Source of the DNA: a virus | DNA: 24,688 bases | Virus record (IMG/VR): IMGVR_UViG_3300046334_000001 | Coordinates: 1-24,688 of that record | Strand: one strand, 5' to 3' | Shown: piece after piece, positions 1 through 24,588 of the stretch | How the letters are laid out: each line of letters opens with the position of its first letter | Position numbering within the stretch: the stretch's first letter is position 1 | Position numbers and translations under genes: made by a program | The notes under the pieces: model-generated | The model's input: the letters and a program-made list of their open reading frames with translations, nothing else | What the model was told of the DNA's origin: nothing | Database searches by the model: none

Positions 1-793
1 TGCCTTCGTCCTGTGCGTTGAACAATGCACCGATACCAGTGTATGTTGTGCGTGGCGATTCTGATAGGTCTGATCCACCGTTGTCGTAAGTGGTTGGTGT
101 GTTGTCCTCGCTGTCAACTAGGTCGTCAATTTCAGTCACTACCTCATTGATATCGGCGACCAAGGTGTCCGTGATTGAATCCAAATCGTCAATGTTGTCA
201 GCAATCTTCTTGAAGATACCATCTTCCCAAATGTCACCGTTAAATGCTCCGTCCAGCAAGCAACCGCCAATTTCGCCAGGAATGATGCTGCCGATTTTGT
301 CGATGAGGTCCTTACCCTTGCCCAGGAAGCTTTGCATTGCATTTTCTAGAACGTTGGGGATTTGGATAGGATCAAGCGGTGCAGAACAGAAGTTGATCAT
401 GTTGGCGATATTGGTGATCTCACCCAGCACCTGATTGATACGTCCTAGAACCTGATCCAGCTTCAAGTGACTCAGGAATTTATCCAGAGCAGCGTCCAAT
501 TTTGCCAGCGCATCATAAAGCACCTGCTGCACTTTGCCTATAATGCCGCCCAACAGTTCTTTGAGATTGAGACTGATACAAATTTGGATGTTGGGTAGCT
601 TGAGCCCGCGTCCAGCCAGCAATGAACAGATGATTTCCTTGAGGTTGAAATCCATCTGGGCACTGACGACCAGTCGGCCAATATCAGCCACACTGCCCGA
701 CAGTTGCGCATTGAGCGAGTTCTGTGAACTCAGATAGTCCGTTGCACTTGCGATTCCATTAGGGAAATCTTTGAATCTACTTGTTAATGCCAT
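1..793 (-). CDS. Virion structural protein (3' end outside window)
   Basis: The frame is open from ATG at 793 to the window edge, giving 264 codons without a stop; the C-terminus is missing. The start (MALTSRFKDF) overlaps the stop of the upstream PAAR-lysozyme gene by one base (TAATG), so the two are translationally coupled. The protein is mostly alpha-helical, with hydrophobic and amphipathic heptad-like stretches around residues 75-130 and 150-185. An acidic segment follows at about 195-230, then a Thr/Ser/Asp-rich stretch. No enzymatic motif or signal peptide is visible. Placement after a spike-tip lysozyme under a late promoter suggests a baseplate, tail or other virion part. This role is inferred from context only; the family was not recognised. 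Confidence 0.75.
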   Translation of the reverse strand, partial: MALTSRFKDFPNGIASATDYLSSQNSLNAQLSGSVADIGRLVVSAQMDFNLKEIICSLLAGRGLKLPNIQICISLNLKELLGGIIGKVQQVLYDALAKLDAALDKFLSHLKLDQVLGRINQVLGEITNIANMINFCSAPLDPIQIPNVLENAMQSFLGKGKDLIDKIGSIIPGEIGGCLLDGAFNGDIWEDGIFKKIADNIDDLDSITDTLVADINEVVTEIDDLVDSEDNTPTTYDNGGSDLSESPRTTYTGIGALFNAQDEG

Positions 794-1689
794 TATTGTG
801 GTCCATTGACTGGGCCGCCGCCCCCGCCTGTCATGCCGCCGTCAACCGGGCAATCGTGATCGCCTTCCATCAACTTACGTGCATTTTCCTGTCTTGCAGC
901 CAGGTTTGCTGTTTTCTCTGCTGGTCGTTCGTAACCTCGCATAAAGTATTCAGCCGCTTGGGCTGGGTCTTGGATAGTTTTGTATTCTGCCAGTGAGTAA
1001 CCTTTACTCCAATGGTTACCGTCATTGCCGTTGAGTTCGTATTGCAAATAGTTGTAGTTTGCTGCATCAGTGGTAGGATCAAGCCCATTGGCCGCAGCAT
1101 ATTCCTCAAAGCTGTCACGCCGTCCATATGACCACTGTAGCCATCCACGACCAATACCATTACCATATTCGATGTCTGCTCTGAACTGGTCACTTTCATG
1201 AAGGATGTTACCCACCATACCAGCCGCTGCGGCTGGACTGTAGCCATCTGCAATCAACTGATTGTAGACGTCAACGCCCTTACAGAACCCTTCACTATTA
1301 GAATTCACGTCTTTTACTCCTGGATCAACAGGAGCAGGCTGAGCACTTCCGCCGCCACTCCCCGCGCCAGGTCCTCCGGCACCACCTGCGCCACTGCCCC
1401 CGCCTCCGCCACCACACGCAAACACATTGGGGCTTGCGCCCACTGCATACGGGTTGATGTGGCCTGCAAGGTCAGGAAGTGCTGCGCTACCTTTGAGCAC
1501 AACCCGTTTACCATTGATGTAGACTGACCCGTCATTGTTGCTGGCAAGCAATCTGCCATCAAAGTGCGTATCCATATCGTCTTGCACACTGGCAAGAAGA
1601 TCGTTTACGTATACGTTGGACTGTCCGCTTACAATGGTTGTAGCAGCACAACTTCGGGTGTCAGTGTTACGATGGACTGGTATGCTCAA
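793..1689 (-). CDS. PAAR-like spike tip fused to tail lysozyme
   Basis: The 298-residue protein has two domains. Residues 1-92 look like a PAAR-type spike-tip domain: a small Gly-rich beta protein with candidate metal ligands H6, C14, H42 and H77. A Gly/Ala/Pro linker spans about 93-120. Residues 130-285 resemble the phage tail lysozyme family (GMVGNILHES, then GRGWLQWS), with E in the HES motif a candidate catalytic acid. Known family roles: PAAR proteins cap membrane-piercing spikes, and tail lysozymes cut peptidoglycan during DNA entry. The start is TTG at 1689, chosen because AAGGAG sits 6 bases upstream and no ATG fits. That SD lies inside a hairpin next to a late promoter. The stop overlaps the next gene's start by one base. 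Domain calls come from motifs, not an alignment. Confidence 0.8.
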   Translation of the reverse strand: MSIPVHRNTDTRSCAATTIVSGQSNVYVNDLLASVQDDMDTHFDGRLLASNNDGSVYINGKRVVLKGSAALPDLAGHINPYAVGASPNVFACGGGGGGSGAGGAGGPGAGSGGGSAQPAPVDPGVKDVNSNSEGFCKGVDVYNQLIADGYSPAAAAGMVGNILHESDQFRADIEYGNGIGRGWLQWSYGRRDSFEEYAAANGLDPTTDAANYNYLQYELNGNDGNHWSKGYSLAEYKTIQDPAQAAEYFMRGYERPAEKTANLAARQENARKLMEGDHDCPVDGGMTGGGGGPVNGPQ

Positions 1690-2040: not shown

Positions 2041-2298
2041 TTAGACTCCTGGGTTTCCTGTCCACATATTGTGGTTATCGTAGTATTCGCAAAGCGCATT
2101 ATAGTTGCCTACGTATTCGCCGTGCAAGAAAATCTGAGGCACAGTTTTTGCGCCAGGCACTGCTTCTCGCAGTTGATCCACGGACCATTGGCCCGAAGTA
2201 AGATTTCTTTCCTCATACGGAATTCCGCTGCGCTTGAGCATCGACTTGGCTTGCTCGCAATAGCTGCAACCATCCTTGCTCCATACAATCGCTGTCAT
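2041..2298 (-). CDS. grx: Glutaredoxin
   Basis: An 85-residue glutaredoxin. The redox motif C11-S-Y-C14 follows the first strand (TAIVWSKDG). The cis-proline motif TVPQIF is at 52-57, and the GEYVGNYN loop follows. The start is ATG at 2298, because GGAGG lies 6 bases upstream; a longer frame from 2328 would overlap the macrodomain gene without an SD. Phage glutaredoxins supply electrons to ribonucleotide reductase. Here the reductase lies four genes upstream on the same apparent transcript, so this is the likely partner that re-reduces its C-terminal cysteine pair. The upstream stop codon ends at 2300, one base before this start. Confidence 0.92.
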   Translation of the reverse strand: MTAIVWSKDGCSYCEQAKSMLKRSGIPYEERNLTSGQWSVDQLREAVPGAKTVPQIFLHGEYVGNYNALCEYYDNHNMWTGNPGV

Positions 2299-2299
2299 G

Positions 2300-2737
2300 T
2301 TATCCCTCCATTTCATAGATATAGACATCGTAGTCTTCTAGTAGGTTTTCTACCAATATGCTGACTTGATCCCAGCTGAGTCCGCCTCGACCACATCCAA
2401 TACGTGGCATTGCAATAGTGTGCAGTCCACGACGTTCCATGTAGTCAGCAATTTCAGCTAGGCAATATCCCACGGCGGTGAGGTCAGCATATTGTTTCCC
2501 ATCGTAACCGTAGTTTTGTTGTGTGAACGCATTGACCCAGATTTGGTCATTGTGTTCGATGAACTGACAGGTGCCCAGTGTTTTGGACTCGTGTGATAGA
2601 TAGGCTTCACGTATCTCTGGATAACGCTTGCGTATTGCTCCTGCCACCCCTGTTCCAAATCCGCCCGAGCAATTGACCCCGTGAGCAATTACCTGCTCAC
2701 GGGCTAGAGTTACGTCACCTTGTTTGTAGTGTATCAT
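2300..2737 (-). CDS. Macrodomain (ADP-ribose-binding) protein
   Basis: A 145-residue macrodomain. The start is ATG at 2737 (MIHYKQGDVT), with GGAG 9 bases upstream; this fits the usual macrodomain N-terminus better than the longer frame from 2812. Visible motifs are GDVT near residue 7, HGVNCSGGFGTGVAGAI at 19-35 (ribose and phosphate loop), and MPRIGCGRGGLSW near 109-121. The pattern is close to ADP-ribose-1''-phosphate phosphatase and TARG1-type macrodomains, which remove or bind ADP-ribose. The Asp that TARG1 has in its GCGLD-type loop is not evident here (GCGRGG). The gene overlaps the preceding one by 23 bases. Possible roles are NAD metabolism next to nucleotide synthesis, or reversal of host ADP-ribosylation defence. 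Family is confident; substrate is unknown. Confidence 0.88.
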   Translation of the reverse strand: MIHYKQGDVTLAREQVIAHGVNCSGGFGTGVAGAIRKRYPEIREAYLSHESKTLGTCQFIEHNDQIWVNAFTQQNYGYDGKQYADLTAVGYCLAEIADYMERRGLHTIAMPRIGCGRGGLSWDQVSILVENLLEDYDVYIYEMEG

Positions 2738-2987
2738 CGATAAAGTCTCCGCCAAACGTGATCTTGAAAAGTGTAGCATCTTCCAGGTTGGCAAATCGAT
2801 AAAGTTTGCCATTGTTGCTGTCAGTTATGCAAGGTATGTCTTGTGTAATCACCCATTGGTTGCATTCACACGCCGTCTCTTCAGTCAAGTAGTTTTTGAA
2901 CTTGATGACGTAAGGGAAGCCTGTGACTACTCGTTCCACATTTCCTTGCAGAACTTTCATCCAGGGCTCTTGATCACTTAGTGTCAT
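2715..2987 (-). CDS. Small unknown protein, paralogue A
   Basis: A 90-residue protein starting at ATG 2987 (MTLSDQEPWM). GAGGAG lies 7 bases upstream, which favours this start over a frame reaching 3017. Its C-terminal half (YRFANLEDATLFKITFGGDF) closely matches the end of the gene just upstream (VYFRELEHATMYKLVFGGDC), so the two look like tandem paralogues. It has two Cys around residues 53-55 (CECNQW) and one at about 64. It overlaps the upstream gene by 14 bases and the macrodomain gene by 23. The aromatic, beta-rich ending GGD-x-I(D/E)(D/E) recurs in both. No known family was recognised. Confidence 0.7.
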   Translation of the reverse strand: MTLSDQEPWMKVLQGNVERVVTGFPYVIKFKNYLTEETACECNQWVITQDIPCITDSNNGKLYRFANLEDATLFKITFGGDFIDDTLQTR

Positions 2988-3243
2988 CAGTTGACTCCTC
3001 AATACAGTCACCGCCAAAAACTAGCTTATACATTGTTGCGTGTTCTAGCTCACGAAAGTAAACACGCAAGCCAAATGTGTCTGGATTGACAGTATTGCGA
3101 TAGTAACCTAAATTATCGTGACACCACTGTCCCACCTCATTGTGTCCCGGTTGGTAGCTTGGTGTTTCGACGCAGATGTGATACCACCCGTCGTCGAAAC
3201 ACCAACTTGCTCGTGAGTTGTATCTAGTGCCCATTGATGGCAT
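2974..3243 (-). CDS. Small unknown protein, paralogue B
   Basis: An 89-residue protein rich in Trp, Tyr, His and Cys. Its ATG overlaps the ribonucleotide reductase stop by one base (TGATG). Residues 61-84 (VYFRELEHATMYKLVFGGDC) match the C-terminus of the next gene, indicating duplication and divergence. The N-terminal part has WCFDDGWYHICVETPSY. Candidate metal-binding or redox residues are C15, C24 and C40, though no standard spacing is seen. Its tight coupling to the reductase and glutaredoxin suggests an accessory role in that unit. That is inference; no family was recognised. Confidence 0.72.
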   Translation of the reverse strand: MPSMGTRYNSRASWCFDDGWYHICVETPSYQPGHNEVGQWCHDNLGYYRNTVNPDTFGLRVYFRELEHATMYKLVFGGDCIEESTDDTK

Positions 3244-5462
3244 CAGATCTCACATGCTCCAGCGGCGCAAGCTGCGGCGCCCATGGTATCAATGTCAGTA
3301 AACTGTTTCTTGCCCAAACCAGTCTTGAAGTCGATGGGTTGCATGTTCTGCTGGATCTTGGTCCACTTGTGTAGCAAGTATACGTCTTTCAAGCAGTATT
3401 CGGCCATCTTCTCGTCACCTTCAAAATAGTTGTTGGCAAACTTCTTGAAGCGACGGATCCATTCCGCACCCAAGTCCTTTGCTTCACCAACATTCTGTGC
3501 GCTTTCATTTTGCGCGGCAAATGTAGCACTCCACAGGTCGATGTGACCCTTTGTGGCTTCTACAATCAAGCCGCTTGCGAACAATGCTGCGCTGCCGTAA
3601 CGGTCAACCAGTTGCTGTTCAGTGAGCACTTCAGTAAATGGTGCTTGATTGAAGTCCTTGTCACCGCTAGCTGAGATAAAGCTGATGCCAGCAAAGCTCT
3701 CACGGTTGGTGAACAGATAGTCCTCAACTTCGTCCCACTGATTGTTGGCCACTTGCACCGTGTTTGATACGTTGTGACGAACTGTTGGGTCCACGCACAG
3801 GCTTTCATCAGTGCCTGCTTCAATCCAGCTGTTCTGCACAAGCTTGACCTTGTCAAGAAGCTGCACCCCATATAGCTCACGTTTGAACAGTGAACCCTTG
3901 GGCGCAATAACAGGGAAGCTAACCACATAGTCCGTGCCGTTGGTTGACCACACACTTTCTTCAACCATGTATGGGTTGGTATCAGCGAACAGACGAGCAA
4001 CTTCCGTGTCCTTGTTCATCTGCACATTGCGGATATAGCGAGGAGAATGGTCGCCATGGATACCGCTTGATGTTCCTAGCAACACACTTGCGTTTCCGCT
4101 TGGCTTGACGCATGTGGTGCGGGCTGCTGGATTGATTCCGATCAGCTTGGCAACTTGACGGTTGACACGCTTGACCAGTTCTGCACCTTCGCGCAGTGTT
4201 TCTTCATTGAAAAGGATCTCTGGGTTGTTCATCCAGCCCGTCAAGCTGACGCCGATGAGAGCTTCACGGTCAAAGATCTTCTTGCTGACAGAGTCCAGGA
4301 ATTTGAAGTCAGTGTAGCCAGCCTGCAAGGTTCCTAGGATAGCACCAGCACGGCACACCTTGAGGAATTCTTCCTTGGTAGTGCACTTGGCGCCGTTACC
4401 TTCGCTGAGGTTACAACCTTGCCAGCCTGAGATCTTTTCGTTGGTCTCTGGGTCGATCCAGACTGGATACTTGCCGATCTCAACGCATGGGTTGAAGGTG
4501 TGCTCTGTGCTTTCCACAAACACAAAACCGGGTTCACCAAACTGACGAATGCTCTTCATGATGTTCTTGAATTGATCACGATCAGCTTCACTGCGAACAA
4601 TCACTGCGCTGTTGTTTGAACGTCCACGCTGTGGGTTCTCTTCATACCAGTTGCCAGTCTTGGCTGAGATCATTTCCTGGTCATCAGGGCTGAACAAGCA
4701 GATGGTGGCACTACGACGAACACCGCCGGCCAGAACAGCATCGGCGGCGTGCATACAGATGTCGTATACTTCAATCGGGCGTAGGGTATTGCGACCCGCC
4801 AGCACTGTGCCCTGAATCAGGTGCTCAATCTTGTCCAATGCTTTGCGCAGTGGTTCAGGTCCTGGTGCTTTGAAGCCACCGCTGATCATCGCACCCTTAG
4901 GGCGGATCTTGCTGAGGTCAAAATACACACGACGACCTTCGTATTCAGGATGCTTTCCACCGCCCACAAAGAAGCTGGACATAAGGACGTCAAGTGCTGT
5001 AGCCCAGCCCTCAATACTGTCCTCGACTTCATGAATCTTCGCTTGGCCCTTGCGCTGAGTTACCTTGGGTAGACGAGCAACGTGGTGACGCTGAACTGAA
5101 AAACCAGCGCCAGCACCACACAACAGGATGTAGAAAATTTCACCAAAGAATGCAGGACGGTCGGCATAACTTGAAGTGCAGTTATACATACGCATTTGGT
5201 GCTTGAGGATTTGATCACCACCAAATTGGAGAGCACGTTGAGCGCCCAACACATACTTGAGTTTGTAAAGTGCTTCTGCTTCGTCGATCAGCAACGATAG
5301 TTCTTCGTTGAGGTAATCCTTGTAGAACTGGCGGTGCATGGACATAACACGGGCAACACTTTCTTCCCATGTCTCGTAACGGCTATGTTCTTCGCTCCAG
5401 CGGCTATAGCCTTCGTAAAATTTTGCTTCACCCATAAGTGCGCGGGTATCGACGTCTTTCAT
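3243..5462 (-). CDS. nrdJ: Class II (B12-dependent) ribonucleotide reductase
   Basis: A 739-residue monomeric adenosylcobalamin-dependent ribonucleotide reductase, similar in length to the Lactobacillus RTPR type. It reduces ribonucleoside triphosphates to deoxynucleotides for phage DNA synthesis. Motifs seen: C95 in MYNC and C350 in GWQGCNL (the active-site disulfide pair); NPCVEI at 324-329 with the radical cysteine C326 and E328; KPSGNASVLLGTSSGIHGDH near 455-475; and a C-terminal CAAGACEI with C732 and C737, the shuttle pair recharged by thioredoxin or glutaredoxin. AGGAG lies 6 bases before ATG 5462. No intein or intron interrupts it. The Val in NPCVEI, where many family members have Gly, is mildly unusual. 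A glutaredoxin gene lies downstream in the same unit. Confidence 0.95.
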   Translation of the reverse strand: MKDVDTRALMGEAKFYEGYSRWSEEHSRYETWEESVARVMSMHRQFYKDYLNEELSLLIDEAEALYKLKYVLGAQRALQFGGDQILKHQMRMYNCTSSYADRPAFFGEIFYILLCGAGAGFSVQRHHVARLPKVTQRKGQAKIHEVEDSIEGWATALDVLMSSFFVGGGKHPEYEGRRVYFDLSKIRPKGAMISGGFKAPGPEPLRKALDKIEHLIQGTVLAGRNTLRPIEVYDICMHAADAVLAGGVRRSATICLFSPDDQEMISAKTGNWYEENPQRGRSNNSAVIVRSEADRDQFKNIMKSIRQFGEPGFVFVESTEHTFNPCVEIGKYPVWIDPETNEKISGWQGCNLSEGNGAKCTTKEEFLKVCRAGAILGTLQAGYTDFKFLDSVSKKIFDREALIGVSLTGWMNNPEILFNEETLREGAELVKRVNRQVAKLIGINPAARTTCVKPSGNASVLLGTSSGIHGDHSPRYIRNVQMNKDTEVARLFADTNPYMVEESVWSTNGTDYVVSFPVIAPKGSLFKRELYGVQLLDKVKLVQNSWIEAGTDESLCVDPTVRHNVSNTVQVANNQWDEVEDYLFTNRESFAGISFISASGDKDFNQAPFTEVLTEQQLVDRYGSAALFASGLIVEATKGHIDLWSATFAAQNESAQNVGEAKDLGAEWIRRFKKFANNYFEGDEKMAEYCLKDVYLLHKWTKIQQNMQPIDFKTGLGKKQFTDIDTMGAAACAAGACEI

Positions 5463-15074: not shown

Positions 15075-16451
15075 TCACTCAGCCCTGCGTAGCAAGGCCT
15101 TGAGTTTGTCACCGTTGGTAATAGCGGTTTCTGTTGATGTCACTGAAGATGGCTTGTCAGCTGGGCGTTTGGATAGCTTGTCATACAAGCTGCTTGAGGT
15201 CGCATCCTCAGCACCGTCCTCGCCCTCAGGCAAGTCGCTGATCCTCAAGCTTTCAATGTTGAACTCCAGGTCAACCTTTTGCCCAACACCACTGCTACTT
15301 CGTGTTTTCATGAACTGGATCTGCACCCGTCCACGCTCACGCATAGCACGGCTGGAGAAGATACCAATTACGTTGTCTGCTGTCTGGATCTTGCTCAAGC
15401 CGCCAGCGATGTGGCTGTGGTCAAATTCCACTTCGTCAACAGCGCCACGGTTGAGCTGGCTGGCAGTTGCAAACAGATAGTTGCCCTCCATGGCAAAGTT
15501 GCGCAGTTCTTCGCTAACATGCTTGTCCTTGAGGAATATGTTGTCTGCACTGATCTTTACCTTGGCTGGCATCATGAGGTCAAGGTAGTCAACCAGCACT
15601 GCATCAACCGTGATGTTGTTCTGGATCTGATACTCTTTGATGTAGGCGCGCAAGTCGTTGACGTTAATGCCGTTAGGTAGCTTTACAACTTGCAGGCGTC
15701 CAGATTTTTTGCCCTTCATGACAACTTTGAGGGCTACTTCGTCAATATGCTTGAACAGTTCTTTGCTTGCCATGCCAGTGTTCATGCTGTCAAGTCGCAT
15801 GGTGCACAAGTCTTCGCTAAGTTCTAGGCTGATGTAGACAACGTTGTGTCCACGCTCAACCCAATTGATAGCGAGGTTCTGCAAGAACAAGCTTTTGCCC
15901 GCGCCGCTACCACCAGCAAAGATGTTGAGCTCGCCGCGGTTGAATCCACCATACAGCAAGAAGTCAACTGCGGTCCAACCAGTGCTGGTTCCGCCTTTGC
16001 TTTCCATAACACGCTGTAGTCGTGCGGCTGGATTTTCCCAGTAGTTGGTGCCCAGTTCTTTGGCCAATCCAATCTGAACTGCCGCACGTATCAGCTCTTC
16101 AACTGCGCCGTATTCCTTGCGTTCCAGTTTGTCAGTGGATTGGAGAATGGCAGATTCAATAGCCTTGTGCCTGCAGAAACGCTCAAAGTCGTCCAGGAAC
16201 CATTTACGGTGGTCACCGCTTGCTTTGCCAATGTCCTGTAGATCCAGTCCTGTCTTGGCTTTGATCTGATTGAGCTCAGGGACCTTACCATACTCGTCCG
16301 CATACTCACGAACAAACTTGACACTCTCACGAATGCCTCTGTCAAAATACTTCTCATCAAGAATGCTGTTGCAACGCACGAACAGGTCGTGGTCGCTCAC
16401 TAGAAATTCCAAGTAGAGTCGCTGTAGTTCTGTGTTGTATTCCTCTGCCAT
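15075..16451 (-). CDS. gp41: Replicative DNA helicase (gp41-type)
   Basis: A 458-residue DnaB-family helicase of the T4 gp41 kind. The N-terminal helical domain spans about 1-140. The RecA core has Walker A GGSGAGKS at 180-187, Walker B VLVDYLDL with D288, an arginine-rich stretch at SSRAMRERGRVQ, and a motif MKTRSSS near 395. It unwinds DNA at the fork as a hexamer, loaded with the primase whose gene lies two positions upstream in the same unit. ATG 16451 overlaps the small gene's stop by one base. The C-terminus from about 420 is acidic and disordered (LPEGEDGAEDATSSS). Confidence 0.93.
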   Translation of the reverse strand: MAEEYNTELQRLYLEFLVSDHDLFVRCNSILDEKYFDRGIRESVKFVREYADEYGKVPELNQIKAKTGLDLQDIGKASGDHRKWFLDDFERFCRHKAIESAILQSTDKLERKEYGAVEELIRAAVQIGLAKELGTNYWENPAARLQRVMESKGGTSTGWTAVDFLLYGGFNRGELNIFAGGSGAGKSLFLQNLAINWVERGHNVVYISLELSEDLCTMRLDSMNTGMASKELFKHIDEVALKVVMKGKKSGRLQVVKLPNGINVNDLRAYIKEYQIQNNITVDAVLVDYLDLMMPAKVKISADNIFLKDKHVSEELRNFAMEGNYLFATASQLNRGAVDEVEFDHSHIAGGLSKIQTADNVIGIFSSRAMRERGRVQIQFMKTRSSSGVGQKVDLEFNIESLRISDLPEGEDGAEDATSSSLYDKLSKRPADKPSSVTSTETAITNGDKLKALLRRAE

Positions 16452-16738
16452 TACCCGTAAACCGTCCCTTTTCTCAATTCTGCCAAATCATAGTATCGCT
16501 GCTGGTCATATCCATGCAGCTTCCACATGACGTATTCTTCCTGTGTAAAATATAGCCGATACTCTGCAATGTGATTGGAGAAATCCGCTGTGGTAAACGA
16601 ACCCACTCCTGGTGGCACTGATCCCATTGTGTAGCTTTGGATCGTCACACAAACCGCCGGGCAGTTGCGCAATGGCGAGCCATACCAACTCCAGCGCGGT
16701 TCAGTCACCATTACATCTTCTACTGTAAACACTTGCAT
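16451..16738 (-). CDS. Small unknown protein between primase and helicase
   Basis: A 95-residue protein. ATG 16738 overlaps the primase stop by one base (TGATG) and its stop overlaps the helicase ATG by one base. It is rich in Tyr, Trp and Val (VTEPRWSWYGSPLRNC, then YRLYFTQEEYVMWKLHGYDQ). The C-terminal helix is basic and aromatic. Tight coupling between primase and helicase suggests a role in primosome assembly. The family was not recognised, so this is context-based only. Confidence 0.7.
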   Translation of the reverse strand: MQVFTVEDVMVTEPRWSWYGSPLRNCPAVCVTIQSYTMGSVPPGVGSFTTADFSNHIAEYRLYFTQEEYVMWKLHGYDQQRYYDLAELRKGTVYG

Positions 16739-17751
16739 CAGTCTCTAAGGTAGCGTTTAGCCAAAACTCGTATTTTGGTAGGATTATCCGTTGCTGCCGC
16801 CAAGACTGACCGCAGCACAAAAGCACGTCCATATTTTACACTTGCTTGGTTAGCGTCCTTGCAGGTTTCCATCCATTCAGGAAAGCTGATCGACCAACCT
16901 TGTGCGATTGCGGGCTCTACTAGTTCTCTACCAGCCTTGTCAGCATCAGGCAGCAATATTGTTCGTCTCTTGAGTTGGTTGATCAAGCTTGCTTGTTCAC
17001 GGCTCAATGAGTTGCTGCCTAGCGCAACTGCATCAATACTTATGGCGTCGAAATCGCCTTCTACCACGATCACCACGTCTCGGTCAGGATTTTGTCGATC
17101 AAGATTGAATACATGATGTGCTGGCTTGCTGACCAAATACTTGGGCGTCTCGCTGTTGGGAGGATTTCCGATGTATCGTGCGTTGTGCCCCACAATCTTT
17201 CCATGATAGCGGTAGGGCAGGATCATGCGCTTGCGATACTTGAAGTCCTTGCCGGTATAGGCCCAATCTGTCCAGTGCAACAGTTCGCGCTGGTCCAACA
17301 TGACGACGCCAGCTTCAAAGTTGGTGCCCAATGTGCCACTGGTATCCATCAGCAACTCTGCTCCCTCTGGCAGAGCAACCTCGGGCCATTGTGGCACATA
17401 CACCGGCTGGGCTGCTGGCACTGGATTGATCAGCTTGGCAGTCTCTTGTTCACGCATCAGTCCCAGAGACATACGTTGCAGTTCAGATTCTTCAACGCCA
17501 AATTGCTTGAGCAGCTTCTTGACTTTTCCACCAATCGCGCTGCCTGTCTTCCAGCCAGTCTTGTAACCACAGTTGAAGCAGTGGTAGACCCATTCATCTT
17601 CACTAAAGTGGAATCCACCACGACGTTTGCGGTCAGGACGAGTCTGCCCGTTAGCTACGCACACGGGGCAGTTGCCAGAAATCCAACCTGTGTTGTTCTG
17701 ACGCCAGGTAGCCGGCAAGCGGCTACGGACGAACTCGATGAAAAAATGCAT
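16738..17751 (-). CDS. gp61: DNA primase (gp61-type)
   Basis: A 337-residue primase of the T4 gp61 / DnaG-like type. The N-terminal zinc-ribbon has C28, C31, C58 and C61 (GNCPVC, then HCFNCGYKTG). The TOPRIM core has VVEGDFDAIS with E231 and PDADKAG with D269 and D271. It makes the RNA primers for lagging-strand synthesis and works with the gp41-type helicase, encoded in the same unit. ATG 17751 has no SD. A sigma70-like promoter ends 7 bases before it, so its RNA is probably leaderless. The stop is coupled to the next gene. Confidence 0.9.
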   Translation of the reverse strand: MHFFIEFVRSRLPATWRQNNTGWISGNCPVCVANGQTRPDRKRRGGFHFSEDEWVYHCFNCGYKTGWKTGSAIGGKVKKLLKQFGVEESELQRMSLGLMREQETAKLINPVPAAQPVYVPQWPEVALPEGAELLMDTSGTLGTNFEAGVVMLDQRELLHWTDWAYTGKDFKYRKRMILPYRYHGKIVGHNARYIGNPPNSETPKYLVSKPAHHVFNLDRQNPDRDVVIVVEGDFDAISIDAVALGSNSLSREQASLINQLKRRTILLPDADKAGRELVEPAIAQGWSISFPEWMETCKDANQASVKYGRAFVLRSVLAAATDNPTKIRVLAKRYLRD

Positions 17752-17796: not shown

Positions 17797-18225
17797 GAGG
17801 TTCACTGTTGTTTGATCTATCACGCTGACCACAAACCGTGGTAGGCTGCGAGTGGTCTGGACCAACATGGTGCGTCCCTGCTCGTCTTGATACTCGATGA
17901 CCATGCTATACAGGCCAGGTAACAGTGTGCTGGTGACCAGGTTGCCCATTACCAACTGTGCTGCGCCTGCTGTTAGCGCATGAGCAATAAGTGAACCAGA
18001 CCAAACTTGCGTGTTCTCGTTGTTAAAGATACGAGCCGTAACAGTGCGACCAGTTACCATGAATGGGCGTTGATTGTGGTCACGGAATGCAAAATACAGC
18101 ACCGCGTCCCAGCCACGATAGATTAGGATTGGGTCAGGGCTGTCGCTACCAATACGATAAGTGCCTGCACGGCGATCGTTGATTGGACTTGCAACTTGTG
18201 GGGTGTGATATGCAAAAACTGTCAT
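17788..18225 (-). CDS. Beta-rich late protein, likely virion
   Basis: A 145-residue protein. ATG 18225 was chosen because a late promoter lies 5 bases upstream (GATAAATA-TCTGC-ATG); a longer frame would cross it. The sequence is mostly beta (DPILIYRGWDAVLYFAFRD, then YSMVIEYQDEQGRTMLVQTT) with a fold that looks like an Ig or jelly-roll module of tail or fibre proteins. There is no SD, so a leaderless late mRNA is expected. It has a divergent partner, the only plus-strand gene. The family was not recognised. Confidence 0.72.
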   Translation of the reverse strand: MTVFAYHTPQVASPINDRRAGTYRIGSDSPDPILIYRGWDAVLYFAFRDHNQRPFMVTGRTVTARIFNNENTQVWSGSLIAHALTAGAAQLVMGNLVTSTLLPGLYSMVIEYQDEQGRTMLVQTTRSLPRFVVSVIDQTTVNLND

Positions 18226-18230
18226 GCAGA

Positions 18231-18238
18231 TATTTATC
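18231..18238 (-). promoter_or_regulatory. T4-type late promoter GATAAATA (leaderless)
   Basis: GATAAATA ends 5 bases before ATG 18225 (TCTGC between), where T4 late start sites usually fall. No SD can fit, so the transcript should begin at or near the ATG. Confidence 0.6.
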
Positions 18239-18260
18239 GCATTCACCAAGACGTCATGCG

Positions 18261-18268
18261 TATAAATA
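18261..18268 (+). promoter_or_regulatory. Perfect T4 late promoter TATAAATA
   Basis: An exact TATAAATA on the plus strand. It is followed by ATGGC and then ATG at 18274. The spacing of 5 bases mirrors that of the divergent minus-strand promoter at 18231, 22 bases away. Confidence 0.7.
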
Positions 18269-18273
18269 ATGGC

Positions 18274-18654
18274 ATGACAAACAATACCAGCATTCAAGAC
18301 CTCCTCGATGAGTATCCATTTTTAACCGTGGCAGTTTACGGCAAGAATGAATACATAGGCATCATCCAGAATCAAGATGCAAACTTGATTAGCATGTATA
18401 TCTACGAAGAGATCAAAACAACCGAGCTAAAGCAATTGTTCCTGGAATACGGCGCCGAATGGTGGTGGGAAACAAATCGACTGATTCCGATTAACATCAT
18501 CCTGGGTAGACGATTCCAACCATTCAAGGATGCATTACGCACATTCAATGTCAAAGACTTTGAAATCAAATACGGGCCCACAGTCTGTCTTAAAGACATC
18601 ATGCAGAAACGAGTTAAGCGCAAAAACGTTCAGCTAATTAGGCGGACAGAGTAG
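18274..18654 (+). CDS. Conserved phage protein, only plus-strand gene
   Basis: A 126-residue protein from ATG 18274 (MTNNTSIQDLLDEYPFL) to TAG at 18654; a longer frame from 18196 would cross the promoter. It contains VAVYGKNEYIGIIQNQD at 22-38, EWWWETNRLIPINIILG at 63-79, and a basic C-terminus (DIMQKRVKRKNVQLIRR). Conserved proteins with this YGxxEYIGIIQNxD and WWWExNRLIPIN pattern are known in T4-like marine phages without known function. It may regulate or bind nucleic acid. It is convergent with the oxygenase gene and overlaps it tail-to-tail by 17 bases. Confidence 0.8.
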   Translation: MTNNTSIQDLLDEYPFLTVAVYGKNEYIGIIQNQDANLISMYIYEEIKTTELKQLFLEYGAEWWWETNRLIPINIILGRRFQPFKDALRTFNVKDFEIKYGPTVCLKDIMQKRVKRKNVQLIRRTE

Positions 18655-19333
18655 CTTCGTAAACCATCAACTCGTCAACAACACTTTCTTCAACGTAATT
18701 CAAGAGCAGCATATACCGACGGGCATTGGTCACATTGGGCATCTGACTGTGCAGTGTTCTTGCATCCCACACAATCATTTCACCAAACTTCAGATCAGGT
18801 TGCACACACCCACGCATGAATTCGCCGGTGTAAGTGCCACGATAGCAGTCATTGATGTTCCAGAATCGCAGGTGGCTGCCTGGTAAGAACCCAGTCACTC
18901 CTGCGCCTCCTGTCATCTCGTGCATTGGAATACCCACTTGCATACCCAGTGGTTTCTTGTAGTGGCTATTCCAAGGAGCATGACGATGCGGGGTATCCAC
19001 ATGTGGACGCACTAGCGAATTTGCAGGCGTTACCACACTCACAGCCACACGATAGCAGATTGGCTGCTCTAGCACTTCTGATATTACCGTGTCCACTGTG
19101 CTACGGATTTCATGCACATAGCGGTTGTCATCCAGTGCACCAGTCCAGTAGTTTGCCCATTCAACGTTGGGCATGTTTTTGGCATGATATCCACCCTGGC
19201 TGTCGTGTCCACGATTGGGGACATCATAGTCAGGTTTGTAGTAGGAGAGCTCATAGAGGCTTCGCTGATTTTCGTTAGTCAGCTTGAATACCGCGTATCC
19301 ATCAACTTGAAGTTTTGTCAGTGCTAGGTCCAA
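18638..19333 (-). CDS. 2-oxoglutarate/Fe(II)-dependent oxygenase, PhyH-like
   Basis: A 231-residue oxygenase. The facial triad is H111-x-D113 (VRPHVDTPHR) and a distal His, H195 (ARTLHSQMPN), with an Arg at 205-206 that would bind 2-oxoglutarate. GFLPGSHLRFW at 149-159 fits the PhyH-type order. These enzymes hydroxylate small molecules, protein or nucleic acids; marine phages carry many with unknown targets. The start is TTG 19333 with GGAA about 7 bases upstream; no ATG fits the frame. It overlaps the polymerase-like gene by 32 bases and is the last gene of the uvsW unit. Confidence 0.85.
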   Translation of the reverse strand: MDLALTKLQVDGYAVFKLTNENQRSLYELSYYKPDYDVPNRGHDSQGGYHAKNMPNVEWANYWTGALDDNRYVHEIRSTVDTVISEVLEQPICYRVAVSVVTPANSLVRPHVDTPHRHAPWNSHYKKPLGMQVGIPMHEMTGGAGVTGFLPGSHLRFWNINDCYRGTYTGEFMRGCVQPDLKFGEMIVWDARTLHSQMPNVTNARRYMLLLNYVEESVVDELMVYEATLSA

Positions 19334-19904
19334 TTAGTTGTTCCGTCAGTAAATTCATATGCAATACTACCGCCATTGCATAAGAAAAAGAGTGCGACTT
19401 TTTGAAGTAATAGCCACCATCCGTCGGAGGGGTCCAGATTTCGCGCATGACCTGATCCCAGGACCTACCAACTAGGTGCCGCTTTGCTGGGCGGATCATT
19501 GCCAGCACTGCCGCCAGTTGCTCTAGGTCACGTGGCTGCATCTGCTTGCAAATGCTATGGTGACCACGCATATGAAACACCATGTCGCAAAACTCTTGCT
19601 CAGCCAGCAACTCCCACACAGGCTCTTGATCCAACAAGGCAACCATGTGCGCCTCGTCACGGACGCCTTTGTAGATGCCCACGTTGAGCACGTCGATCTT
19701 GAAATAACCCAGTGCTTCAGCTTCTGTGTAATCAATGCTGCATAGCCCAGTGAATGGATCCGTGGGCACTGGATGAAAGTAAACGCCTGTGTTGTGTTTC
19801 TTCACCGTGTTGCCAGTGCGATTGCTGGCAACAGCATGACGAAACAACTTGAGCACACGATCCCGGTCAGGAACGTCAATGTCAATGTCAGTTACGGTGG
19901 GCAT
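19302..19904 (-). CDS. Miniature DNA polymerase III alpha-like (family C) protein
   Basis: A 200-residue protein, starting at ATG 19904 with GAGGA 6 bases upstream. Its order matches the palm and fingers of DnaE. DIDIDVPDRDRVLKLF corresponds to the PDFDIDF segment with the two catalytic Asp (D8 and D10). LGYFKIDVLNVGIYKGV corresponds to the KFDFLGL segment with the third Asp (D71). VFHMRGHHSICKQMQPRDLE follows the VFQLES part, and FKKSHSFSYAMAVVLHM at 167-183 matches FNKSHSAAYA. The PHP domain, thumb and C-terminal parts are absent. It could be a small polymerase-like enzyme, a decoy or a repair factor. The family link is inferred from motif order; activity is unknown. Confidence 0.65.
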   Translation of the reverse strand: MPTVTDIDIDVPDRDRVLKLFRHAVASNRTGNTVKKHNTGVYFHPVPTDPFTGLCSIDYTEAEALGYFKIDVLNVGIYKGVRDEAHMVALLDQEPVWELLAEQEFCDMVFHMRGHHSICKQMQPRDLEQLAAVLAMIRPAKRHLVGRSWDQVMREIWTPPTDGGYYFKKSHSFSYAMAVVLHMNLLTEQLIGPSTDKTSS

Positions 19905-20403
19905 CAAAGATCCTCAATGAGTCACGTGCCACCATCAACAGCTCACCCAAGTAGTTCTTGCCCTGCCAATTTGCAGGATCACGAGCGTCAACGTCATCAG
20001 GTGCTAGCCCGATACCCCATATTTTGTCCATGGGCGAAGCTTCAGCAATCACGCGATTGCCAGTGGAAAGCAACAATTGTCGCAGTGATTCATTCTGCTC
20101 GAACTTGGCTAGGATGCCAGGCAGCACTTCTTCCAGGCAACATGCCTCCCAGTCAGCCTGATCAAAGTTTGCCACTTTGCGGCCCAACATCTTCTGTTCA
20201 CGTGGGTTCGTAGTCGCCATGATCTGTTGCTCAACCATGGTATCGCCAAACACGACGGCCTTGCGGCGCATCATGAACTGTTCAACGCAATTGTAGACTG
20301 TGCCGTCAATCTCAAATGGAGATTGGAACCAATTGCTCAGCACACCTCCCCAAAACAACACCACGCGGTCATCCATATATTCCCAGGGTTCTTGCTTGCT
20401 CAT
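19888..20403 (-). CDS. NADAR (YbiA-like) ADP-ribose N-glycosidase
   Basis: A 171-residue member of the NADAR (YbiA, DUF1768) family. ATG 20403 overlaps the preceding stop by one base, with GAGG 8 bases upstream; the GTG three codons earlier is less likely. Motifs: WGGVLSNWFQSPFEIDG near 18-34, YNCVEQFMMRRKAVVFGD near 37-54, ANFDQADWEACCLEEVLPG in the middle, and DKIWGIGLAPDD late. Known family members hydrolyse an N-glycosidic bond and some remove ADP-ribose from guanine in nucleic acids. In a phage this could undo host ADP-ribosylation defences or feed NAD metabolism. The macrodomain gene at 2300-2737 acts on related chemistry. Family confident; substrate inferred. Confidence 0.88.
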   Translation of the reverse strand: MSKQEPWEYMDDRVVLFWGGVLSNWFQSPFEIDGTVYNCVEQFMMRRKAVVFGDTMVEQQIMATTNPREQKMLGRKVANFDQADWEACCLEEVLPGILAKFEQNESLRQLLLSTGNRVIAEASPMDKIWGIGLAPDDVDARDPANWQGKNYLGELLMVARDSLRIFDAHRN

Positions 20404-20627
20404 TACATCCACCTCAATTTCATCATCACTATAAAGCTGGGGTCATCATAATACACCAGCATTCCTTCTCTGTGTGCACCGTGTTCTGCACACCACGTAT
20501 CAAACTCATGTTGCACCGGACCCCATCTATTATGATCTGTCAATAATAGGCAATAATCCGTTTCACCAGGCAAGTTATTATTGTTCAGCTGGATTACGCC
20601 TAATCCAGATGTGTCCTCAATCAACAC
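20403..20627 (-). CDS. Small unknown protein upstream of NADAR
   Basis: A 74-residue protein. GTG 20627 follows GGAG by 5 bases and was preferred over ATG 20648, which has no SD. The gene overlaps the PTH2-like gene by 11 bases and the NADAR ATG by one. Its sequence (VLIEDTSGLGVIQLNNNN, then DYCLLLTDHNRWGPVQHEFD) is rich in Asn, Asp and His and has a WGPVQHEFDTWC motif near 39-50. No enzyme family was recognised. The one-base overlap implies shared expression with NADAR. Confidence 0.62.
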   Translation of the reverse strand: MLIEDTSGLGVIQLNNNNLPGETDYCLLLTDHNRWGPVQHEFDTWCAEHGAHREGMLVYYDDPSFIVMMKLRWM

Positions 20628-20940
20628 GCGGACTCCACAGTTTAGCATATTTGAGCACGTTGGGCAACTGGTCGTTCTCACAAGGAACAGGCACTGCACA
20701 ACTCTTCTCAGCGTTGAGCGTGGTATTCTCGTGGCCCAAGTAGACACCTTCCAATGCAGCGATCTTGGCAAACTCTTTGCGGTTCACACGGACCACACAT
20801 TTCTTGAAGGAATCCTTCAGCCAGATCTGATACTGCTCATTGTCTATCATGGCCAGGTGTGCACCCAGAACAGTGTGCGCTACCAAAGTGGGAGTCATGA
20901 AGTCAGGCACTTCATCCAACACTGCAATATACATTTTCAT
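20617..20940 (-). CDS. Possible PTH2-like (peptidyl-tRNA hydrolase) protein
   Basis: A 107-residue protein. ATG 20940 overlaps the upstream stop by 4 bases and has GGAG 8 bases upstream. The order resembles PTH2: a first strand (KMYIAVLDEVP), a helix with H (VAHTVLGAHLAMID), a strand (KKCVVRVNRKEF), a GHENTTL loop, then PVPCENDQLPNVLKYAKLW. PTH2 enzymes free peptides from tRNA. The usual PTH2 active-site Lys/Asp signature cannot be confirmed by eye. It could instead be another small alpha/beta phage protein. The fold is a weak inference. Confidence 0.6.
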   Translation of the reverse strand: MKMYIAVLDEVPDFMTPTLVAHTVLGAHLAMIDNEQYQIWLKDSFKKCVVRVNRKEFAKIAALEGVYLGHENTTLNAEKSCAVPVPCENDQLPNVLKYAKLWSPRVD

Positions 20941-21608
20941 CTTGAGGACTCCAGTATGCTTTCTATCCACGAAATCGTGGGTTTGTTTACGTCTATCTTG
21001 CGCTGCCAGAATGGCAGATCGATTGTTTCCGCTATGTCAGTCAACAGCTCTACAGGCAAGCTGTCCAGCGACTGTTTTGCTCTGCTGTAGCCTAGCAGTA
21101 TCCAGGGAGATATCTTGCCCATCTTAATGTCGTTGACCAATGCGAAGGGCTTGACGTTCTCCCAGTATTTGGTCCAATGCCAGCCAGTGCGCTCACTCCA
21201 AGCTTCAGCGTGTAGCACGTAACGCTCAAGTGCTCGCTCTGCCGTTTCCTTCTTGCTTTGCTCTGCAAGGTAGCGGTTGTAGATGGAGTCCTTGCACCAC
21301 AAGTCAACCTGTGTGCGGTTCTTGATCAACCACTCCAAGTATCGTTCAGGTGCCAGCACTCTAGTCTCTAGCACATACAGGCCAAAACGCACAAAGGCGC
21401 CGTAGTATTGACTCTTCGCGAACTGCTCATATGTCTTGTCCACCTTGGCACCCATTGCCTGGCGATACCAGTCGCTGAAGAACTTGTGGGCTAACCTAAC
21501 GTGTTGTTCGTTACGCTGTAGCCAACGCTTCTTCTGCGGGCACATATGAGTCGCAACAGTGCGCTCTGCTTTGAACGCTTTGTCACAATATTCGCAGGTG
21601 ATGCTCAT
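20937..21608 (-). CDS. C2H2/C2HC-type zinc-finger phage protein
   Basis: A 223-residue protein. The N-terminus holds a zinc-finger-like C5-x-x-C8...H21-x-C23 pattern (ITCEYCDKAFKAERTVATHM). The rest is helical and aromatic (AHKFFSDWYRQAMGAKVDK, then YYGAFVRFGLYVLETRV). KISPWILLGYSR near 163-174 is a further marked segment. Proteins with this CEYCDK start are conserved in T4-like marine phages and have no known function. ATG 21608 overlaps the upstream stop by 4 bases. A nucleic-acid-binding role is likely from the finger but untested. Confidence 0.78.
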   Translation of the reverse strand: MSITCEYCDKAFKAERTVATHMCPQKKRWLQRNEQHVRLAHKFFSDWYRQAMGAKVDKTYEQFAKSQYYGAFVRFGLYVLETRVLAPERYLEWLIKNRTQVDLWCKDSIYNRYLAEQSKKETAERALERYVLHAEAWSERTGWHWTKYWENVKPFALVNDIKMGKISPWILLGYSRAKQSLDSLPVELLTDIAETIDLPFWQRKIDVNKPTISWIESILESSR

Positions 21609-22456: not shown

Positions 22457-22950
22457 AAATGCATGATGTCCAAAACGTCTGGGATCTTCCCAGTCTCTTT
22501 GACGAAGAAGGCGCACATACTGCCAGGGTCATCGCTCAGTGGAATCGCCAGTATGTGTCCCTGCTTCAGTTTGGGAAAGTGCCATTTGACCTCGCTGTAA
22601 ATGTTGGTGATCTCGATAGGTTGATACTGCGGCATAAAGCTGCTGATCGGATTGAGTGTGAACGCACTGAAGCCTCTGTCGTTGAGGCTGGTGATCGGAA
22701 TCACCTCAGGGTCGCCACACTCACTATCACAAATTATCACGCTCCAGTCAATGGGCATCTTGAAGGAATGATTGCCAATTTGCAGCACGGCGGCAGGAGC
22801 ATTGAAAATCTCCAGGAACACCAGCGGCATAAAGTAGTAATCAGGATTGTGCTTATCGCTGTAGTCTAGCACACAATAGCGGATGTCGTCAATCTCATCT
22901 GGGACAAAATCCAACTCGTATGGTGTGTTTTCACTTGTTAAAATTCTCAA
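22450..22950 (-). CDS. Conserved unknown phage protein
   Basis: A 166-residue protein. The start is TTG 22950, overlapping the uvsW stop by 4 bases (TTGA). It is rich in beta strands and Pro, for example YYFMPLVFLEIFNAPAAVLQ, KMPIDWSVIICDSECGDPEV, TSLNDRGFSAFTLNPISSFM and EVKWHFPKLKQGHILAIPLS. The CDSECGDPE and SLNDRGF phrases look like conserved active or binding sites. No named family was recognised. Its place directly after uvsW suggests a role in replication or its control, inferred only. Confidence 0.7.
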   Translation of the reverse strand: MRILTSENTPYELDFVPDEIDDIRYCVLDYSDKHNPDYYFMPLVFLEIFNAPAAVLQIGNHSFKMPIDWSVIICDSECGDPEVIPITSLNDRGFSAFTLNPISSFMPQYQPIEITNIYSEVKWHFPKLKQGHILAIPLSDDPGSMCAFFVKETGKIPDVLDIMHLW

Positions 22951-24521
22951 GTTTTGGGGGCCTTTCCATTTGCATCCCCAAACAGTTCACTGATCTTCTT
23001 TTGATCCTTGCGCCAGTCCACCTTGGTAATCTTGAACGGATACTGGGCTTTGGTGTAGAACTTCTTGCGCTCAGTGAGGTGACTCTTGCTAAACTTGGCG
23101 CTGGATGTGATGTCGTAAATGTTTACGAAGTCCTTGTCAGCCGCCATGCGCAGTCCTCGCCCGATACTCTGAATCACGCGGATAAAGCTCTTGCCCGGTT
23201 CGATCAGAACCAAGTTGAAGATTCTGGGGATGTTGATACCCACGGCTGCTACACCATAGGTGGCCAGGATGATTTTGTCGTCCTGGTTGGAGATCTCTTT
23301 ATAGTGACCTCGTCTATCTTCGTTTTTCATTTCACCGCTAACGAATACGGTTCGTTCCTCTGGCAGTCGATCAAGCAGACCCTTGCCAGCGTTCACTCTG
23401 TCCACCAAGACCAACGTGTTGCCTGTCTTGGCTATAGCTTCTATCATTGCTGCAATGTAGTCCAGCCTACCAGTGTCTGTTGTGAGGTAACTGAGCTCGC
23501 TTTGATAGTTGTCGTAATGCACCGCATCCTGCATCTGGATGACGTCGACGTGGCAATTGCTCAATACGCCATCTTCCTGCAATGTATGTGCACTGAGTTC
23601 ACCAACCACTGAACCGATAGCCACTTTGAGGCCAATTGCAGCATGAGCGTCAGGTGGGATGGTTCCAGTCAATCCCCAACGAATAGGAATGTTGCGGAAC
23701 GGACCCACCAGCATTTTCTTGAGCACGTCAGCTTTGGCGCCGTGTGCTTCGTCCACAATCACAGCCATCACGCCTGACGTGAAATCTTCCAGTGACATAT
23801 CGCTTGTGCCAGCTTGGAAATTCTTCTGGATGATCTCTAGACTTTGCCAAGTGCAGATGGTGTGCGTCTTGCCATACTCTTTGCGGTCGCCGTAGTATAC
23901 GCCCACATCCAATCCTAGGTTGATGTAGTCTTCCTCAGTCTGTGACACCAAGCCCTTGTTGGGAACGATAACAATGGTGCGGGCGCCACCGTTGCGTCCA
24001 GTCATCATCTTATACATGACCAACTGTTCGTCAGTGAAGCTGCGCTCTACAAGGTCGCTGAGCCCGGCTGTGATTAGTGTCTTACCAGCACCAGTTGCCA
24101 CTTCCTGACAGCTTGCTTGATTGTTGAGGAAGTTGTTGATGATGTCGACTTGGTAGTCACGCAGAACTACAGGCTGCCCTGCGGCTGGGTGACCTTCAGG
24201 CCACACTCTGTCCGCAAAGTGGTCCATTTGGATGTTGTCAAAGCTAATCTCAAATCTGATGCGATTGTCCAGCAACGTGACATCGTAGCCATCATTCAGC
24301 AGAGTGGGCAGTATGTCCTCGAGGAGGTTGACATACGTCTTGCCGCCTACGTTGAAGAAGCTTACTTTGCCATCCCATCTACCCATCTTGTAAGCAGGGA
24401 CGTGGTATGCATGTGGCATAACAAAGCTGAACTTGTCAACCAGCTTGCGCCGTGTGGACGCCTCCAAACCATGTATCTTGCAGTTTACTTCATCTAGCAG
24501 TTCAATTTTAGCTTCACGCAT
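22947..24521 (-). CDS. uvsW: UvsW-type DNA helicase
   Basis: A superfamily 2 helicase of the T4 UvsW kind, 524 residues from ATG 24521. It has an N-terminal domain with FSFVMPHAYHVPAYKMGRWDG, Walker A ATGAGKT at 142-148, DEAH at 257-260, and motif VI QSIGRGLRM in the second RecA domain. UvsW unwinds branched DNA and R-loops and switches replication from origin-dependent to recombination-dependent mode. ATG 24521 gives an N-terminus (MREAKIELLDEVNC) that lines up with T4 UvsW; a GTG at 24566 in the same frame is the alternative (539 residues). A short upstream ORF overlaps this start by 8 bases. Confidence 0.93.
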   Translation of the reverse strand: MREAKIELLDEVNCKIHGLEASTRRKLVDKFSFVMPHAYHVPAYKMGRWDGKVSFFNVGGKTYVNLLEDILPTLLNDGYDVTLLDNRIRFEISFDNIQMDHFADRVWPEGHPAAGQPVVLRDYQVDIINNFLNNQASCQEVATGAGKTLITAGLSDLVERSFTDEQLVMYKMMTGRNGGARTIVIVPNKGLVSQTEEDYINLGLDVGVYYGDRKEYGKTHTICTWQSLEIIQKNFQAGTSDMSLEDFTSGVMAVIVDEAHGAKADVLKKMLVGPFRNIPIRWGLTGTIPPDAHAAIGLKVAIGSVVGELSAHTLQEDGVLSNCHVDVIQMQDAVHYDNYQSELSYLTTDTGRLDYIAAMIEAIAKTGNTLVLVDRVNAGKGLLDRLPEERTVFVSGEMKNEDRRGHYKEISNQDDKIILATYGVAAVGINIPRIFNLVLIEPGKSFIRVIQSIGRGLRMAADKDFVNIYDITSSAKFSKSHLTERKKFYTKAQYPFKITKVDWRKDQKKISELFGDANGKAPKT

Positions 24522-24588
24522 ACGCTTCAAAATTCCAGGTTGAAAACAGTCCGTGGATATCACCACCGACTGCTTCTGTAATGATCAT
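24514..24588 (-). CDS. Possible 24-residue leader peptide before uvsW
   Basis: ATG 24588 lies exactly 7 bases after a sigma70-like -10, the same spacing as at the primase gene. It opens MIITEAVGGDIHGLFSTWNF and stops after EAYA, 24 residues in all. Its stop overlaps the uvsW ATG (ATGCGTGA), which would couple the two. It is leaderless and untested; it may be a regulatory reading frame or a chance ORF. Confidence 0.35.
   Translation of the reverse strand: MIITEAVGGDIHGLFSTWNFEAYA

Follow-up and report, generated by a model that had tools for sequence, protein, structure and literature searches.

Judged from its sequence, the gene on the minus strand at positions 19302-19904 of the window (the whole 24,688-nucleotide stretch of viral DNA that was analysed) belongs to the split minimal DNA polymerase III alpha that was described, also from sequence, in 2021 (PMC7824862). 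It encodes the C-terminal half of that protein, referred to here as piece B; in related phages another gene, located far away, codes for the N-terminal half, piece A. Together the two pieces probably constitute a minimal family C nucleotidyltransferase or DNA polymerase with a shared active site, which would operate beside a family B polymerase. Homology, residue conservation, a complementary split, co-occurrence, gene context and purifying selection were all observed for this pair. The features of the window gene were as follows.

19302-19904, minus strand: piece B gene (phrog_11778), C-terminal half of split minimal DNA polymerase III alpha, 200 aa
19875-19889, minus strand: DIDID, equivalent to the metal-binding aspartates D401/D403/D405 of E. 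coli DnaE (roles, PMC3919608), invariant in 67/67
19785-19802, minus strand: KKHNTG, equivalent to the E. coli K510/H511/G514 region, with H and G invariant in 67/67
19680-19700, minus strand: KIDVLNV, equivalent to E. coli K553/D555 (D555 being the third catalytic aspartate), with K and D invariant in 67/67
19488-19580, minus strand: fingers core VFH...LAAVLAMIRP, equivalent to DnaE VFQLES...VALFRP, from profile matches and alignment
19377-19406, minus strand: FKKSHSFSYA, equivalent to E. coli FNKSHSAAYA, H171 being the steric gate H760, with H and Y invariant in 67/67

The open reading frame starts with an ATG at 19904 and its stop codon ends at 19302. The first-pass annotation had reported that three DnaE motifs follow one another in this frame in the DnaE order and that the protein is about one sixth the length of DnaE. 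Both statements were confirmed, since DIDID (residues 6-10), KIDVLNV (69-75) and FKKSHSFSYA (167-176) lie in that order within 200 residues, compared with 1160 residues for E. coli DnaE. Its claim that all three catalytic aspartates of DNA polymerase III are present was also borne out: D6, D8 and D71 correspond, in order, to E. coli D401, D403 and D555, and equivalents of K553 and the steric-gate histidine H760 are present as well. The catalytic and metal-binding roles of the aspartates in family C polymerases (PMC3919608) and the steric-gate role of H760 in E. coli DnaE (PMC8485763) have been reported previously. In PHROGs, piece B was assigned to phrog_11778, "DNA polymerase" (E 1.8e-62), and was also matched by the DnaE profile phrog_405 (E 1.8e-9); the Pfam match to the polymerase III finger domain was sub-threshold. 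When a 55-sequence piece B profile was compared with the PDB, DNA polymerase III alpha chains ranked first (best E 7e-4) and PolC chains were not among the matches. The resemblance of piece B to DnaE is not due to chance.

Structure prediction yielded a family C palm and fingers, and no different fold. The AlphaFold models of pieces A and B had pLDDT values of 93.0 and 90.7, respectively. The 15 top structural matches of the piece B model were all family C polymerases (VIA Z 5.2-9.1), the first row from outside the family had a Z of 3.0, and matches outside family C, all at 3.0 or less, were disregarded. Piece B aligned over its full length with 5lew (Z 9.1), with residues 399-781 of E. coli DnaE (2hnh, Z 8.5) and with PolC (3f2c, Z 8.2); the rmsd values against family C structures were large (6-8 Å) because domains are missing or shifted. 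Residues 76-178 of piece A superimposed on 5lew at 2.3 Å (Z 11.9) and residues 82-178 on E. coli residues 279-393 at 2.6 Å, and again the top rows were all family C polymerases. From these alignments it follows that the two models tile the palm and fingers of DnaE, with the break at 393/399. Foldseek alone gave weaker E-values (3.4e-4 for piece B and 4.7e-3 for piece A) and the same top family.

Relatives of piece B were identified by tblastn in 64 phage records, nearly all of them from jumbo phages (among them Phosso, Atu_ph07, PA5oct, RaK2, CBB, GAP32, 121Q, Munch, XacN1 and SCTP-2), and in at least 597 metagenomic viral loci; the hosts of the phages span several bacterial groups. The equivalents of D401, D403, D405, H511, K553, D555, H760 and Y764 were invariant in 67/67 aligned members, the metagenomic set being biased at DIDID because one search pattern contained that motif. 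In the phage genomes recovered by plain tblastn, which are free of this bias, D-x-D-x-D was retained in 12/12 of those read. The conservation of the catalytic aspartates among homologues, which the first-pass annotation had left to be checked, was thereby confirmed. The median dN/dS (Nei-Gojobori) was 0.11 for piece B, over 195 pairs, and 0.113 for piece A; both pieces are under strong purifying selection.

Piece A (phrog_11127) carries the GRGS loop and corresponds approximately to E. coli residues 279-393, the nucleotide-binding part. The earlier suggestion that the window protein is a stripped-down polymerase palm and fingers was therefore correct in part: it is a greatly shortened family C palm and fingers in a T4-like phage, but not a stand-alone one, since its relatives encode the nucleotide-binding half of the palm in the distant piece A gene. 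When a full DnaE profile was run against four complete genomes, the N-part was matched at profile positions 357-436 in 4/4 and the C-part, the fingers region of piece B, at 579-809 in 3/4; in the fourth genome (GAP32) piece B is present as an annotated gene. In 11 jumbo-phage genomes piece A ended at the DnaE motif FERFLN (..EFLN/K/R) and piece B started at PDxDxD (PDIDID). The distance from the start of GRGS to the piece A stop codon was 33 residues in nearly all cases and 33-39 residues in 80/80 metagenomic loci, so that the stop fell within 6 residues of the junction in all 80 metagenomic copies. Most piece B loci started at, or a few residues from, DxDxD, many of them literally with MPDIDIDF; a methionine likewise occupies the position of E. 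coli DnaE that matches the start of piece B. There was no fused gene among 80 piece A and 80 piece B loci, and no intein in the jumbo-phage halves, where piece A terminates at the junction and a comparison with NCBIfam gave no match.

The two genes lay 15-224 kb apart in the 11 sampled jumbo-phage genomes. Eleven phage genomes and nine IMG/VR contigs contained both halves; piece A was among the matches listed for 57 of the 60 listed phage records bearing piece B, and of the eight IMG/VR contigs that reach 200 kb and carry piece A, seven also had piece B. The exception among these eight, the 359 kb linear contig IMGVR_UViG_3300035698_035310, gave no piece B even after a second search and may be incomplete. 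Piece A was not found in 20 contigs of at most 98 kb that bear piece B, because the genes lie far apart, and it was not found in the 24.7 kb window (best E about 5). The window phage would be expected to carry its own piece A outside this fragment.

Much of DnaE is missing from the two pieces. D403 and H511 are separated by 108 positions in E. coli and by 29 in piece B, which indicates that the thumb, the DNA-gripping part of a polymerase, is gone; approximately 80 thumb residues are absent between DIDID and KKHNTG. The D555-H760 spacing is 205 in E. coli and 100 in piece B, the fingers being cut to about half. The PHP, HhH2, OB and C-terminal regions are absent, and with the full-length DnaE profile nothing convincing was found in the four complete genomes beyond pieces A and B, the only other hit being one weak short match. 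With regard to the E. coli residues reported to contact the incoming nucleotide (PMC4374717), the equivalents of R362, G363 and S364 are kept in piece A (75/75), R709 may be kept as R142 of piece B (Arg in 60/67 by alignment), and R390 and R710 are changed, to E and to H/Y, respectively. A reading in which the LRRAMGKK fingers helix was wholly lost was dropped, as the alignment tentatively sets the conserved R142 on R709. With no thumb and with R390 and R710 changed, templated synthesis by the pair could be weak or lost.

The window carries T4-type replication genes, namely a UvsW-type helicase, a Toprim primase and a DnaB-type helicase, and the surroundings of piece B were conserved among its relatives.

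15075-16451, minus strand: replicative helicase (gp41/DnaB-like), conserved cassette, 48/48
16738-17751, minus strand: primase (gp61-like, Toprim), conserved cassette on the downstream side of piece B, in all 48 relatives whose downstream DNA is long enough
18196-18654, plus strand: phrog_11637, small convergent gene adjoining piece B, 74/80 loci, always on the opposite strand
20937-21608, minus strand: phrog_11058 protein, just upstream of piece B, 79/80 loci
22947-24566, minus strand: UvsW-type helicase, upstream cassette, 40/47 loci with enough upstream DNA

The products of phrog_11058 and phrog_11637 are candidate partners of piece B; the former has a possible N-terminal C2H2 finger, with a non-significant score. 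Piece A was followed by the gp44 clamp loader gene in 49/51 loci. A family B polymerase was present in 4/4 relatives' genomes tested, and none was detected among the window proteins scanned, which cover the 24.7 kb fragment only.

Other genes were noted in the window. A NADAR-domain gene (19888-20412, minus strand) lies just upstream of piece B, is missing from 80/80 related loci and is probably a recent insertion; a macro-domain protein, ADP-ribose related like the NADAR protein, is encoded at 2300-2812 (minus strand). Just downstream of piece B a PhyH-type 2-oxoglutarate oxygenase gene is inserted (18638-19333, minus strand), as in 5/80 relatives. The window also encodes a B12-dependent (class II) ribonucleotide reductase (3243-5462, minus strand), a glutaredoxin (2041-2328, minus strand) and a phage tail lysozyme (793-1689, minus strand) whose start weakly matches PAAR.

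In the mechanism proposed, piece B would supply the three aspartates, K553, the steric gate H760 and the template/fingers half, and piece A would supply the nucleotide-triphosphate loop GRGS (R362/G363/S364). The two would most likely associate without covalent joining and rebuild one DnaE-like active site, the product being a DNA polymerase that lacks the thumb, the PHP domain and a clamp-binding region. Such an enzyme might act alongside the phage's family B polymerase, where primase, helicase and clamp loader operate, its possible tasks including, for example, primer extension and gap filling. We infer in particular that the pieces associate physically, that they are catalytic and that they serve primer extension or repair.

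Other explanations were weighed against the same observations. The pair may be an active nucleotidyltransferase and not a templated polymerase, for instance adding nucleotides to RNA primers, ends or some other substrate, an activity known from many small Pol-beta-fold enzymes. Deletion of the thumb, reduction of the fingers to roughly half and replacement of the R390 and R710 equivalents, together with invariant metal and triphosphate sites, are consistent with such an activity; it is nevertheless an unlikely one, given that the steric-gate histidine is invariant and the fingers core conserved, both of which serve dNTP selection, and that the gene context is a replication cassette. Phages commonly target host replication, and a pair that imitates part of the host DnaE could be a decoy or inhibitor that mimics the host polymerase III core and disturbs host replication. 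This appears very improbable, because the catalytic aspartates and the K553 and H760 equivalents, needless in a decoy, are invariant, the regions through which DnaE makes host contacts (PHP, clamp motif and tau-binding domain) are exactly those missing, and the pair sits in phage replication operons across hosts of several bacterial groups.

Similarly poor odds attach to the idea that piece B alone serves the primase/helicase complex as a DNA-binding or regulatory subunit and no longer meets piece A. Piece B is indeed consistently near primase and helicase genes, with piece A tens of kilobases away near the clamp loader, but a metal site deprived of the triphosphate loop would serve no purpose, and the two halves retain their invariant parts and co-occur. 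If a bacterial dnaE had been captured, then disrupted by mutation or a homing element and left to degenerate without function, this would account for a protein much shorter than DnaE and for the description of piece A as a truncated alpha subunit in the phage CBB genome paper. The first-pass annotation had considered a family C relic, but the gene is not decaying: with a dN/dS of about 0.11, an invariant active site, an identical junction in 80/80 piece A genes and conserved copies in 64 phage records and in some 600 loci from metagenomes, this explanation is extremely improbable.

If the A-B pair is active as a shared-site polymerase, it would probably rank as the smallest polymerase of family C, with an active site divided between two chains. 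Its activity would show that the PHP, thumb and clamp-binding domains are dispensable, and many giant T4-like phages would then run two unrelated polymerases.

With regard to the origin of the split, the 2021 authors suggested that such pieces reflect ancient replicons (PMC7824862). In the phages Cellulophaga phi13:1 and Tenacibaculum Larrie a full-length DnaE is likewise interrupted at the FLN/PDxDxD junction, and an N-half broken there was also found in Bacteroides phage BS-TP1 and a gut phage.

L204 2646-6226, L205 2998-6598, L206 2803-4536, L207 2764-4548: split DnaE loci of Cellulophaga, Tenacibaculum and Bacteroides phages

Unlike the jumbo-phage pieces, the phi13:1 and Larrie proteins keep PHP, thumb and HhH2 and their halves are adjacent genes. 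Retention of the DnaE-specific D405 and the break point shared with these Bacteroidetes phages tentatively favour the splitting of a DnaE-type gene over an ancient-replicon origin, as a lead and not as a result. The N-halves of the Bacteroidetes-phage proteins have tails of 45-80 residues; that of BS-TP1 weakly matched Pfam Intein_splicing, with an E-value of 9.9e-4 that misses the curated cut-off; the remaining tails had no match to this family and NCBIfam found no intein. A more far-reaching reading is unlikely: the pair would be smaller than any other known DNA polymerase of family C and given over to extending primers before the family B polymerase takes over, and its split would have arisen by loss of a split intein at PDxDxD, of which Bacteroidetes-phage DnaE may preserve traces, the halves then self-assembling. 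The split polymerase with an intein reported for phage MIJ3 (PMC6892783) is a family B polymerase and has no relation to the A/B split. The family B polymerase of Deifobo, a phage related to MIJ3, lies in two frames (OR805293.1, 88827-92604).

A family C-like protein had been regarded in the first-pass annotation as unexpected in a T4-like phage, but Iyer et al. (Viruses 2021, PMC7824862) had already reported, from sequence, that the "group 2.2" jumbo phages encode a minimal polymerase III in split form in addition to a family B polymerase. The window gene matches their stand-alone C-terminal unit with the Mg2+- and template-binding parts, and differs in coming from an uncultured virus whose N-terminal partner is not on the fragment. 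New here are the exact invariant junction, the structural complementarity, the synteny statistics and the same split site in Bacteroidetes-phage DnaE, where one tail is weakly intein-like. PolC, the Gram-positive family C polymerase, shares the fold by structure comparison but has Asn at the D405 position (PMC3919608), where the window protein has D10 and 67/67 aligned members have Asp. The dnaE of actinophages (Pharpay, Beyoncage) is also in two genes, adjacent or nearly so, and was rejected as an instance of the same split, as its break lies between PHP and an unbroken core; the Staphylococcus phage SA 1306 match was an ordinary full-length dnaE. Cyanobacterial DnaE is likewise encoded by two genes, with a split intein at the FNKSH motif through which the halves are spliced, whereas the phage split has no detected intein and lies at PDxDxD. 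Compared with bacterial DnaE, a single chain in which PHP and (HhH)2 accompany the Pol3 core almost universally in cellular organisms (PMC3919608), the phage version is divided in two, totals about 370 residues and lacks the PHP, thumb, (HhH)2, OB and tau-binding domains; common to both are the palm metal site, K553, the steric gate H760, the fingers core and, in the partner protein, the GRGS loop.
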